Shown here piece by piece: positions 7,879 to 34,097 of a DNA stretch of 34,097 nucleotides (its first letter is position 1; the number at the start of each line of letters is the position of its first letter). The translations under genes were made by a program, and so were the position numbers. The notes under the pieces are model-generated. The model saw nothing but the letters and a program-made list of their open reading frames with translations, had not been told where the DNA came from and searched no databases. The stretch comes from a virus. The stretch covers positions 1-34,097 of the IMG/VR virus record IMGVR_UViG_3300023178_000157; one strand, given 5' to 3'.

Positions 7879-8183
7879 ATGACGTAACACCAGAGGAATG
7901 GAATGAAGTGGCTAAGCTAAGTCGCGGGCGTATTAAGGAAAGAGATGATGAGATGGTAAATAATCCTGCTCACTATAATGAAGGTGAGATTGAAACCATT
8001 GATTACATTGTCGATGTGCTAGGCGAGTGGGACAGTATTCATTACTGTCACGGTAACATCATCAAGTATTTAAGCACCCGCTTATGGGTCAAGGGCAAGC
8101 CGTTACAGGATGCTAAGAAAGCCCGTTGGTACTTAGACAAGATGATTGACCTAATGGAAAAAACAGAAGGGAAGAATTGGTGA
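7866..8183 (+). CDS. DUF3310 protein (related to T7 gp1.7 nucleotide kinase C-terminus)
   Basis: A 105-residue protein with the DUF3310 signature: NPAHY (about residues 33-37), then IETIDYI, then YCHGNIIKYLSTR, then a DAKKARWYLDKM helix. T7 gp1.7, a nucleotide kinase, has the same pattern in its C-terminal half (KPSHY, IEAIEVI, GNILKY, DLAKADFYKEL). A kinase role here is inference, but the location at the head of a nucleotide-metabolism cluster fits it. The start is GTG 7866, with GAGG 7 bases upstream. The nearby ATG 7879 is in another frame and meets a stop two codons later. It overlaps the exonuclease gene upstream and mazG downstream. Confidence 0.82.
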   Translation: MAGLNDVTPEEWNEVAKLSRGRIKERDDEMVNNPAHYNEGEIETIDYIVDVLGEWDSIHYCHGNIIKYLSTRLWVKGKPLQDAKKARWYLDKMIDLMEKTEGKNW

Positions 8184-8482
8184 GATTAAACACACTAGAA
8201 ATGCTCATTGAACGATGGGGACATGAGAAAGGTATCCTTCCTTATGTTGTACCTGGCGCTCAACTAGAGAAGACTGAGGAAGAAGTAGCCGAGCTACGTC
8301 AAGCTATTGAAGAACGTGATGTTGAAGAAATTGCAGATGCTATCGGAGACATCTTTGTAACCTTGGTCATGCAGACACGAGCTTGGGGCTTAGACATGGA
8401 AGCATGTGTGGAGCAAGCATACAAGACAATCAGCCAGCGCACAGGAAAGATGGTTGATGGTCAATTTGTTAAGGACTCTTAA
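8180..8482 (+). CDS. mazG: MazG-like nucleotide pyrophosphohydrolase
   Basis: A 100-residue all-alpha NTP pyrophosphatase-like protein. The metal-binding motif is present: EExxE at Glu34, Glu35, Glu38 (KTEEEVAEL) and ExxD at Glu50-Asp53, with Asp57 (EIADAIGDIFVTL). Members cleave (d)NTPs to monophosphates; phage versions have been proposed to sanitise pools or alter ppGpp signalling. GTG 8180 is preferred to TTG 8177 because AAGGGA lies 7 bases before it. The GTGA overlaps the DUF3310 stop. Its own stop overlaps the ATG of a 13-codon leader (TAATG). It is part of the nucleotide cluster with nrdA, thyX and nrdB. Confidence 0.88.
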   Translation: MRLNTLEMLIERWGHEKGILPYVVPGAQLEKTEEEVAELRQAIEERDVEEIADAIGDIFVTLVMQTRAWGLDMEACVEQAYKTISQRTGKMVDGQFVKDS

Positions 8483-8541
8483 TGATTAAAATAGATTACA
8501 TAAACCAACTTAAGGACGCTTAATGATTAAAATAGATTACA
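8469..8541 (+). repeat. Tandem duplication of the nrdA translation start region
   Basis: Two 32-base copies, 8469-8500 and 8510-8541, are offset by exactly 41 bases and differ at one position (T8477 versus G8518). Each holds AAGGA, a 6-base spacer and ATGATTAAAATAGATTACA. The second copy is the real start of nrdA. The first starts a short upstream ORF. The 41-base period shifts frame, so the first copy cannot extend nrdA. Confidence 0.95.
8482..8523 (+). CDS. 13-residue leader peptide upstream of nrdA
   Basis: Reads MIKIDYINQLKDA and stops with TAA 8521-8523, whose last A is the A of the nrdA ATG. Its first six residues copy the nrdA N-terminus because the start region is duplicated. AAGGA lies 6 bases upstream. 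Its ATG also overlaps the mazG stop, so mazG, leader and nrdA form a chain of two TAATG junctions. Expression is likely from the signals. A regulatory role (setting or coupling nrdA translation) is inference; it could be a neutral slip duplication. Confidence 0.5.
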   Translation: MIKIDYINQLKDA

Positions 8542-10250
8542 CACGCAATGAGGGGTTTACTGACCAAGCTCTTACATTGCTTAAAGATTATTACTGTAGG
8601 GAAGGGGAAGACCCACAAGATGCGTTAGCTAGAGCTAGTATGGCTTACAGTGAGGGTGACATGGAGTTCGCCCAGCGCATCTATGACTATTGTAGCAAGC
8701 AATGGTTTATGTTTGCCTCTCCAGTGTTAAGTAATGCACCAGCTAAGGGTGAAGCTCCTAAGGGCTTACCTATCTCGTGCTTTCTTACATACATTGGGGA
8801 TAACCTCGAAAGCCTTATCTATCACAAGTCAGAAGTATCTTGGCTGTCTGTTAAAGGTGGTGGTGTAGGTGGTCATTGGTCAGCAGTGCGTGGGGTCAGT
8901 GATAAAGCTCCAGGTACTATCCCATTTCTAAAAGTAGTAGACAGTCTGATGACTGCATACAAACAAGGTAAGACACGCAAGGGTAGCTACGCTGCTTACA
9001 TCGATATTGACCACCCAGATGTCATAGAAGTGATGAACTTCAAAACACCTACAGGTGGTGACGTAAACCGTAAATGCTTTAACCTGTTTAACGCAGTGAA
9101 TGTGACTGACAAGTTTATGGAAGCAGTATCTGAAGGCGCTGAGTGGGAACTTAAAGACCCTCATAGCGGTGAAGTAAGAGACACAGTTAAAGCTAGAGAG
9201 CTTTGGCAACGCATCTTAGACACCCGTTTTAGAACTGGCTCACCTTATGTAAACTTTATTGATGCAGCTAACGAAGCTTTGAACCCATATCAGAAAGAGA
9301 AAGGTCTTAAGCTACATGGCTCTAACCTTTGTAACGAAATACACCAAGCCACTAACGAAGAGCGTACAGCAGTTTGCTGTCTTAGCTCAGTAAACATTGA
9401 AAAGTTTGATGAATGGTGTGATACTGAAATGGTTAAAGACTTAATCCGTTTATTGGATAACGTGTTATCATTCTTTATTAAACACGCTCCTGATGAACTA
9501 AGCAAAGCTAGGTTCTCAGCAGAACAAGAACGCTCTATTGGCTTAGGTGCTATGGGTTTTCATGGTTACCTTCAGTCTAAACAAGTTCCTTGGGAATCTT
9601 TCCAAGCTACAATACACAACAACATGATTTTTAACACTATTAAAAAGCAAGCTGTGGAAGCTAGTAAGGAACTAGCAGTCGAGAAGGGGGAGCCTAACGA
9701 CATCAAAGGCTCAGGTATGAGGAATGCACACCTACTTGCTATAGCACCTAACGCGAACAGCAGTATTATCTGTGGGTGTACAGCTTCGATTGAACCACTG
9801 AAGTCTAATGCCTTTACACACAGGACACGCGCAGGCGCACACTTGGTTAAGAATAAGTATCTTGAGAAAACCTTAGAAGAGCTGGGTATGAATACTCAGG
9901 AAGTATGGTCAAGTATTATTAATAACGATGGTTCTGTGTTACACTTGGATATTCCTGATGAAGTTAAGGATATTTACAAGACTGCTTTTGAGCTAGACCA
10001 GACATGGGTAGTAGAACATGCAGGTAAGAGACAGAAGTATGTATGCCAAGGTCAATCAGTAAACCTTTTCTTCCCAGCAGGTTCAGAGCGTAGCTATGTC
10101 AACATGGTACACCTGAAGGCTTGGAAGATGCGAATGAAGGGTTTGTATTATCTACGGACTAATGCCGTAGTTCTATCAGACAAAGTAGGACAGAAGGTTG
10201 AGCGTGTAGCATTGAAAGATGCTGACGAGTGCTTGTCCTGTCACGGTTAA
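8523..10250 (+). CDS. nrdA: Class I ribonucleotide reductase, alpha subunit
   Basis: A 575-residue NrdA that reduces ribonucleotides to deoxyribonucleotides with NrdB. Active-site residues are present: Cys86 (PISCFL; E. coli C225), Asn268, Cys270 and Glu272 in NLCNEI (N437, C439, E441), Cys285 in VCCLSS (C462), the radical-transfer pair Tyr542-Tyr543 in YYLRT, and the C-terminal CLSC shuttle (570-573). The protein starts directly at the catalytic barrel region. E. coli NrdA has 761 residues, and the N-terminal ATP-cone that senses dATP is absent here. Loss of that brake would suit dNTP production during infection. The start region is duplicated upstream. thyX follows after 9 bases. Confidence 0.95.
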   Translation: MIKIDYTRNEGFTDQALTLLKDYYCREGEDPQDALARASMAYSEGDMEFAQRIYDYCSKQWFMFASPVLSNAPAKGEAPKGLPISCFLTYIGDNLESLIYHKSEVSWLSVKGGGVGGHWSAVRGVSDKAPGTIPFLKVVDSLMTAYKQGKTRKGSYAAYIDIDHPDVIEVMNFKTPTGGDVNRKCFNLFNAVNVTDKFMEAVSEGAEWELKDPHSGEVRDTVKARELWQRILDTRFRTGSPYVNFIDAANEALNPYQKEKGLKLHGSNLCNEIHQATNEERTAVCCLSSVNIEKFDEWCDTEMVKDLIRLLDNVLSFFIKHAPDELSKARFSAEQERSIGLGAMGFHGYLQSKQVPWESFQATIHNNMIFNTIKKQAVEASKELAVEKGEPNDIKGSGMRNAHLLAIAPNANSSIICGCTASIEPLKSNAFTHRTRAGAHLVKNKYLEKTLEELGMNTQEVWSSIINNDGSVLHLDIPDEVKDIYKTAFELDQTWVVEHAGKRQKYVCQGQSVNLFFPAGSERSYVNMVHLKAWKMRMKGLYYLRTNAVVLSDKVGQKVERVALKDADECLSCHG

Positions 10251-10259
10251 AGGAACCTA

Positions 10260-10895
10260 ATGAAAATAGAACTTGTAGACTGCGCTGGGGGTGACCTTAG
10301 CGTAGTAAACTCAGCACGAGTAAGCTTTGCAAAAGAAGCAACAGAGCTGGAACTTAAAGACGAAAAGCTCATTAAGTATCTGGCTAAACATAAACACATG
10401 ACACCGTTTCGTCATAACTTTGTACAGCTTAGATGTTCAGTACCTTTGTTCCTAGCTAGGCAGCTCATGAAGCACCAAGCAGGACTAACATGGAATGAAG
10501 TAAGCAGACGATATGTAGATGCACCTCCAGAGTTTCATCAACCAGAAGGATGGAGAACTCGACCTGAGGGTGGCATTAAACAAGGTAGCGGGGGTGTAGC
10601 TGAGGACACTGAACAGTGGGCAGTTACATACGGGGGATACCTAGAGTCAGCTCAACGCTTGTACATCGGAATGATTAAGGCAGGCATAGCTCCTGAACAA
10701 GCCCGTATGGTCTTACCACAATCAATGATGGTGGACTTCATATGGTCAGGTAACATCTTAGCTTTCTCTCATGTGTACACCTTACGGATTGGTGAGGGCG
10801 CACAGGTAGAAGCTCAAGAGTTTGCAAAAAAATTAGACGAAGTAATTAAACCTGCATTTCCTGTTAGTTGGAAAGCATTAACACAAGAGGACTAG
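10260..10895 (+). CDS. thyX: FAD-dependent thymidylate synthase ThyX
   Basis: A 211-residue ThyX, which makes dTMP from dUMP with methylene-tetrahydrofolate, NADPH and FAD. Family features are HMTPFRHNFVQLR, the signature region MKHQAGLTWNEVSRRY (residues 70-85, with Ser82) and LPQSMMVDFIWSGN. The usual RHR-x7-S signature is altered: KHQ replaces RHR and the spacing to Ser is one longer. NE-x-S-x-RY is kept, so activity is likely. AGGAA lies just before the ATG. It sits between nrdA and nrdB, giving a unit that supplies thymidine nucleotides for replication. Confidence 0.93.
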   Translation: MKIELVDCAGGDLSVVNSARVSFAKEATELELKDEKLIKYLAKHKHMTPFRHNFVQLRCSVPLFLARQLMKHQAGLTWNEVSRRYVDAPPEFHQPEGWRTRPEGGIKQGSGGVAEDTEQWAVTYGGYLESAQRLYIGMIKAGIAPEQARMVLPQSMMVDFIWSGNILAFSHVYTLRIGEGAQVEAQEFAKKLDEVIKPAFPVSWKALTQED

Positions 10896-12423: not shown

Positions 12424-12426
12424 GAT

Positions 12427-12888
12427 ATGGCACAACGTAACTGGTACAAACCGCCAAAGCCTCTTCCAACATATGAAAAAGAACTTGGTAAGCGTGTAGG
12501 AAAGTTTAGGGCGATGAAACTCAGAAGCCTTCTTCGCGCTGAAAGTGCTGACCTAAAGCGTCAACGGCTATTATTAAAACATCAGGGTTATGATAGCACC
12601 AATCCTCTGCGTAGGAGGTTAGTAGAGGGCATAGGGCGTGACTCCGATGGGGCTCTGTTTGAAGAAGCACACAGAGGTAAAGCCGATGCCAGAGTGGGCG
12701 TTAATGATGAAGCCACTTTAGACGGTAAAACCCGTAAAAAACTACGTAAGTCTGAACAGCTCCGCGCTCAACGTAGAAGCAAACGCAGACTACGTGTCGG
12801 AGGAAACCTTAGTATTGGTACTAAAGGTGACTCAGGCGTGGGAATAGGTGGCTCTAAGAAGGCATCTTTAAACATTCCAAAAGGTTAA
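12427..12888 (+). CDS. Basic protein of unknown function, probable virion component
   Basis: A 153-residue, very basic protein with many Arg and Lys, for example RKKLRKSEQLRAQRRSKRR. It ends in a glycine-rich tail, GVGIGGSKKASLNIPKG. The last residues, IPKG, match the end of the preceding gene product, which suggests a shared C-terminal sorting or assembly signal or a common origin. It lies directly upstream of the portal gene, with AAGGGG about 6 bases before the ATG. Its charge would suit nucleic-acid contact or assembly, but no domain is recognised. Confidence 0.6.
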   Translation: MAQRNWYKPPKPLPTYEKELGKRVGKFRAMKLRSLLRAESADLKRQRLLLKHQGYDSTNPLRRRLVEGIGRDSDGALFEEAHRGKADARVGVNDEATLDGKTRKKLRKSEQLRAQRRSKRRLRVGGNLSIGTKGDSGVGIGGSKKASLNIPKG

Positions 12889-16506: not shown

Positions 16507-16529
16507 GTTTTTAATAAGGAAAAGACAGC

Positions 16530-33912: not shown

Positions 33913-34050
33913 GTACAAGATATATATATATATATACATACACAGTACATATATACATATATACATACACAGTACAAGATATATATATATATATACATAC
34001 ACAGTACATATATACATACATATATATACATACACAGTACATATATACAT
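33913..34050 (+). repeat. AT-rich array with four copies of a 12-bp element
   Basis: CATACACAGTAC occurs at 33937, 33964, 33996 and 34029 (spacing 27, 32 and 33 bases). Between copies are alternating TA runs and TATATACATA. A longer unit starting GTACAAGATATATATAT repeats at 33913 and 33972 (offset 59). The location after terL recalls the short-repeat arrays beside the T7 terminal repeats. Whether it marks a genome end, a replication site or a packaging site cannot be told from the sequence. Confidence 0.85.
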
Positions 34051-34097
34051 AGATAAGAGAAGAGAGTTGCTGATGAATTCTACACTTACATTTGTAG

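Follow-up and report, generated by a model that had tools for sequence, protein, structure and literature searches.

How does a gene in a tightly packed phage operon come to have its translation start site in duplicate, and does the extra copy change how that gene is translated? The question is raised by the junction between mazG and nrdA in a 34,097-nucleotide stretch of viral DNA (IMG/VR record IMGVR_UViG_3300023178_000157), referred to here, at its full length, as the window. Judged from the window and its relatives, the duplication is probably a tolerated, nearly neutral 41-bp variable-number tandem repeat that preserves translational coupling, with an effect on nrdA of mild tuning at most.

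The phage and its gene neighbourhood

The window covers part of the genome of a T7-like marine phage. It encodes a single-subunit RNA polymerase, a T7-type primase-helicase, DNA polymerase A, a 5'-3' exonuclease and a DUF3310 protein, then MazG, NrdA, ThyX and NrdB (identities by Pfam), and further on a head-tail adaptor, a scaffold, the major head protein, a tail protein and terminase. By the primase-helicase, the nearest cultured relatives are the Roseobacter CRP phages, at 55-57% identity. Alignment of relatives with the window breaks down at 12424-12718 and 16513-16529, between flanks that are 96-98% identical; these two stretches are likely variable gene slots. An AT-rich 59-nt tandem repeat of 2.4 copies lies at 33913-34051, close to the right contig end.

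Around nrdA the gene order varies. In more distant relatives, with about 70% NrdA identity (L008-L014, L025, L043 and L051), mazG and nrdA are separated by a glutaredoxin-like gene, which overlaps nrdA by 8 nt. The clade of the window does not have this gene there and has presumably lost it; as a consequence of its absence, nrdA adjoins the Shine-Dalgarno (SD) sequence in the mazG tail. On the other side, where nrdA ends at 10250 and thyX starts at 10260, two relatives (L005 and L058) have a further gene inserted, about 286 codons long and similar to phosphoadenosine phosphosulfate reductase (PHROG 424, E=1.8e-31), which is found neither in the window nor in the other alleles.

Architecture of the duplicated start site

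The features of the junction, all on the plus strand, are as follows.

8177..8482, +: mazG, the upstream cistron (Pfam MazG PF03819, E=8.7e-7; sequence)
end of mazG: tail GTTAAGGACTCTTAA (VKDS*), which holds the SD for the next ORF
8469..8500, +: repeat copy 1, TTAAGGACTCTTAATGATTAAAATAGATTACA, comprising the mazG tail, SD, leader ATG and first codons (repeat search)
8482..8523, +: leader ORF of 13 codons, MIKIDYINQLKDA* (sequence, relatives)
8501..8509, +: filler of 9 nt between the copies, TAAACCAAC (TAAACCACC in relatives)
8510..8541, +: repeat copy 2, TTAAGGACGCTTAATGATTAAAATAGATTACA, comprising the leader tail, SD, nrdA ATG and first codons (repeat search)
8523..10250, +: nrdA, ribonucleotide reductase large subunit, the downstream cistron (Pfam Ribonuc_red_lgC, E=5.2e-112)

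A preliminary description of this DNA reported a 32-base block duplicated with a 41-base period, a 13-codon leader coupled to both neighbours through TAATG, and the retention of both ribosome sites, and all three hold. Positions 8469-8500 and 8510-8541 form a direct repeat of 32 nt, spaced at 41 bases, in which 31 of the 32 bases are identical (97%, one mismatch). In copy 1 the sequence AAGGAC serves as SD within the mazG tail and is followed by TAATG and the codons MIKIDY: the mazG stop codon TAA occupies 8480-8482 and the leader ATG begins at 8482. In copy 2 AAGGAC forms leader codons 11-12, and the leader stop overlaps the nrdA ATG at 8523. Both junctions are thus -1 overlaps of a single base, and both SD-ATG sites are intact. 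The TAATG arrangement is ordinary for this phage, being shared with six other gene junctions among those listed.

The leader peptide is a chimera, the N-terminus of NrdA joined to the C-terminus of MazG, from which it follows that it was made in situ by duplication of the junction. By sequence comparison, then, the locus is a 41-bp variable-number tandem repeat that formed locally, out of the mazG-nrdA junction itself. The filler does not betray a source: by eye it resembles neither flank, and the window has no second match to ACATAAACCAACTTAAGGAC even when up to 3 mismatches are allowed.

How unusual is the arrangement?

A 22-base core of the unit has only two sites in the 34 kb of the window with 3 mismatches allowed, both at the mazG-nrdA junction, and 0 are expected in shuffled sequence. 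A mobile or dispersed unit is ruled out by this lack of any other copy in the window. Near-tandem repeats of comparable score are scarce: among the matches listed from 967 kb of phage DNA (a redundant set) there are five distinct ones, two of which are the mazG-nrdA locus itself, counted once per strand, and this locus is the only one of those listed that lies at a TAATG gene start. A separate tandem duplication, of 132 bp, lies at 989-1252 of L168, inside an apparent DUF3310-type gene.

The exact landing of the leader stop on the nrdA start had been put forward as unlikely to result from random drift. Enumeration does not bear this out. All simple duplications of 20-90 nt that include the SD-ATG were generated from a single-copy allele, and 968 of 2,982 (32%) gave a leader that ends exactly in TAATG on the second ATG; with random filler the figure is 28%. 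The successful cases are essentially all those whose length is 2 mod 3, and at 41 nt all 28 of 28 duplications land in this way. A chance of 28-32% is this high because the length of the duplication need only be 2 mod 3. What is unusual here is the duplication itself, not its exact stop-start landing.

Copy number among close relatives

Junctions were compared in IMG/VR contigs whose NrdA is 95-100% identical to that of the window. They comprise seven distinct alleles, all from metagenome assemblies, with NrdA 95-99% identical. The tandem unit is present at one, two or three copies, and the differences between alleles are always exact 41-nt steps. Four of the seven (L003, L004, L005 and L007) have a single copy and no leader. 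Two copies are found in the window and in L002/L058 (L002 differs by about 2% in DNA), and one allele, L006/L055, has three copies and two leader ORFs. In L006 the chain of ORFs is unbroken in the TAATG register: MIKIDYINHLKDA* / MIKIEYINHLKDA* / MIKIEYTRNE... Contig L001/L056 is 100% identical to the window (L001 over 5,988 bases) and so may not be independent of it. Searching with the unit and with the mazG tail brought up no further leader alleles, nor were further alleles found in GTDB genome contigs, and none of the annotated phage records is closer than about 69% DNA identity.

Absence of the duplication from all relatives would have counted against the preliminary description, and this is not what the comparison shows: one independent two-copy allele and one three-copy allele carry it, but the leader is missing from four of the seven and is not conserved. 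Since four of these near-identical alleles do not have it, the leader is dispensable.

A read-level assembly error, which the preliminary description had allowed for, has a very small probability of explaining the repeat. Every sequence here is a metagenome assembly, which leaves such an artefact conceivable, but the repeat recurs in independent contigs 2-4% apart, with private substitutions inside the repeat: a second contig, about 98% identical, has two copies and a third has three. The array is also small enough, at about 105 nt or less, to be contained as a whole in a single short read.

Differences within the leader bear on the peptide itself. Leader codons differ between alleles at three positions, all of them amino-acid changing (Q/H, A/S and D/E); the variable codons of nrdA, by comparison, number 117 with synonymous and 33 with amino-acid-changing differences. 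From these small numbers nothing suggests a selected leader peptide. Likewise, the locus does not have the marks of a regulatory leader peptide: the peptide is not conserved, the repeat has no match in Rfam, no attenuation structure or stall motif was found in the leader, and predicted folding at the nrdA start does not change consistently across the one-, two- and three-copy alleles. That the 13-residue peptide is functional is hard to credit, even though the ORF is open and has an SD in every leader copy seen: it is absent from four close relatives, every difference between alleles alters an amino acid, and its sequence is fully accounted for as a by-product of duplication. The leader peptide is probably without function.

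Origin and direction of copy-number change

The two- and three-copy alleles have a common haplotype at the 3' end of mazG, which suggests that they have one origin; the nrdA side has recombined. Copies 2 and 3 of L006 have in common a T-to-G change (D5E) that is missing from copy 1, as would be the case if slippage or unequal recombination had duplicated the last unit, or if one unit had converted another. In a tree of full-length nrdA the single-copy allele L007 is basal, and in a tree of the first 560 nt the two-copy alleles are basal. Recombination puts these trees in conflict, and the order 1->2->3 is as compatible with them as an ancestral two copies with losses. Most differences of L007 nrdA from the other alleles lie downstream of about codon 200, a pattern that suggests recombination within nrdA.

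The basal place of the two-copy alleles in the local tree would also suit a different history, in which a glutaredoxin gene between mazG and nrdA was deleted down to a 13-codon stub with a MIKI... start and a Y..LKD end, and recombination of the flanking repeats with each other then gave the single-copy alleles. The relatives with about 70% NrdA identity do have the order mazG-grx-nrdA, with a grx that starts M-I-E-I-Y-G and ends GGYTELKEKL, and L092 has a mazG-coupled grx starting MIKIYG. Even so, this history has little chance of being the right one, given that 31 of 32 identical bases, including the mazG tail and nrdA-specific codons, would be unexpected from two different genes, and that duplication requires one step.

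Consequences for nrdA translation

In the preferred reading, that of a tolerated repeat, a duplication with a 9-nt filler would have copied both the nrdA translation start region and the mazG tail. With a unit length of 41 bp (2 mod 3), each copy is a full mini-cistron, its ATG on the previous stop and its stop on the next ATG, and any copy number would keep the chain of termination and reinitiation from mazG to nrdA whole. Overlapping gene pairs are known to couple by termination-reinitiation, and for the pairs tested in E. coli the final 15 nt of the upstream gene were enough (PMC10666635); by this rule mazG, leader and nrdA of the window would be translated as a chain. Each added unit would then contribute one more reinitiation step and one more ribosome entry site before nrdA, and may modestly tune or buffer nrdA translation, moving it off the mazG rate and closer to the level that the repeated SD itself sets. 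We infer in this way the translation of the leader and reinitiation at its stop, as well as the size and sign of any effect on NrdA.

A simple flux model makes the possible outcomes explicit. If reinitiation has efficiency r and de novo initiation contributes d at each site, every junction yields N = rM + d. In the model, nrdA translation rises with an added unit only if d > M(1-r); the dependence of nrdA on mazG is always multiplied by r and so lowered, and output approaches d/(1-r). Folding predictions give a local dG at the nrdA start of -8.3 for one copy, -6.6 and -8.2 for two copies, and -3.7 for three, the SD being less open in the three-copy allele. Neither a sigma-70 promoter nor a forward terminator was found in the repeat.

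The preliminary description had proposed that the leader tunes nrdA against nrdB or loads ribosomes; the sequence gives no sign of either, although such a role is compatible with it. A selected translational tuner, in which the leader serves as a natural bicistronic device to raise NrdA synthesis or insulate it relative to mazG, with copy number as its setting, is unlikely but deserves some weight. Its architecture equals that of the synthetic bicistronic design (PMC6302717, PMC10367133), copy number ranges from 1 to 3 among alleles, and in the flux model each unit multiplies mazG dependence by r. Four of seven close alleles do without the leader, however, predicted start-site structure follows no consistent trend with copy number, and the same model permits a rise, a fall or no change. 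Start, stop and SD are intact in at least two clearly diverged lineages, which is also as expected under mild selection. A bolder version, in which the locus is a self-expandable rheostat, the number of 41-bp units, changeable in one replication or recombination event, setting both the strength and the mazG-independence of ribonucleotide reductase translation, is improbable.

Comparison with known systems

Ordinary -1 (TAATG) coupled pairs in bacteria and phages (PMC10666635) have the same type of overlap as the mazG-nrdA locus, where the ORFs overlap by one base at each junction; the phage locus differs in that a 13-codon ORF is interposed, in variable number. Short leader peptides and uORFs that deliver ribosomes (reviewed in PMC12548453) are likewise short ORFs coupled to a main gene; in the phage leader no attenuation structure, stall motif or peptide conservation was found. 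The literature search found nothing that directly matches duplicated start sites in phages.

The closest parallels are the mycobacterial MIRUs and the bicistronic design (BCD), and on paper the phage locus would work like both. At senX3-regX3, MIRUs form an intergenic array that differs between strains (PMC4213456). According to PMC12548453, which cites Supply et al. 1997, the small ORF of the MIRU is stop-start-coupled to the downstream gene, and its insertion likely has little effect on expression. MIRUs resemble the phage repeat in being short tandem repeats between co-directional genes with a strain-variable array and a coupled small ORF; those of the senX3-regX3 array measure 53-77 bp, are interspersed and apparently mobile, and have -4 overlaps. 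The phage unit measures 41 bp, is confined to one locus, is a copy of the local junction, and has TAATG, a -1 and not a -4 overlap, at both ends of every leader copy. It is therefore not a MIRU: its core occurs in the window only at this junction, it derives from phage mazG-nrdA and not from a mycobacterial family, and its overlaps are -1.

BCDs are expression elements (Mutalik et al. 2013, as described in PMC6302717 and PMC10367133) with a short first ORF that has its own SD, a second SD inside it, and a stop that overlaps the target ATG as TAATG. The phage locus has the same layout, with the second SD inside a short ORF whose stop overlaps the nrdA ATG. The BCD is engineered and its first SD is accessible, whereas in the phage one SD is a copy of the other and a third gene, mazG, would feed the leader.

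Implications

The mazG-nrdA junction is a small, clean natural case of a start site duplicated in a tightly packed operon with translational coupling kept, and of an apparent bicistronic design arising through one duplication. The natural one-, two- and three-copy alleles are a ready series for the effect of reinitiation steps and repeated SD sites. If copy number matters for the dose of NrdA, the repeat would give a phage gene of nucleotide metabolism a simple expression switch; if not, copy number would serve as a neutral marker of phage microdiversity.
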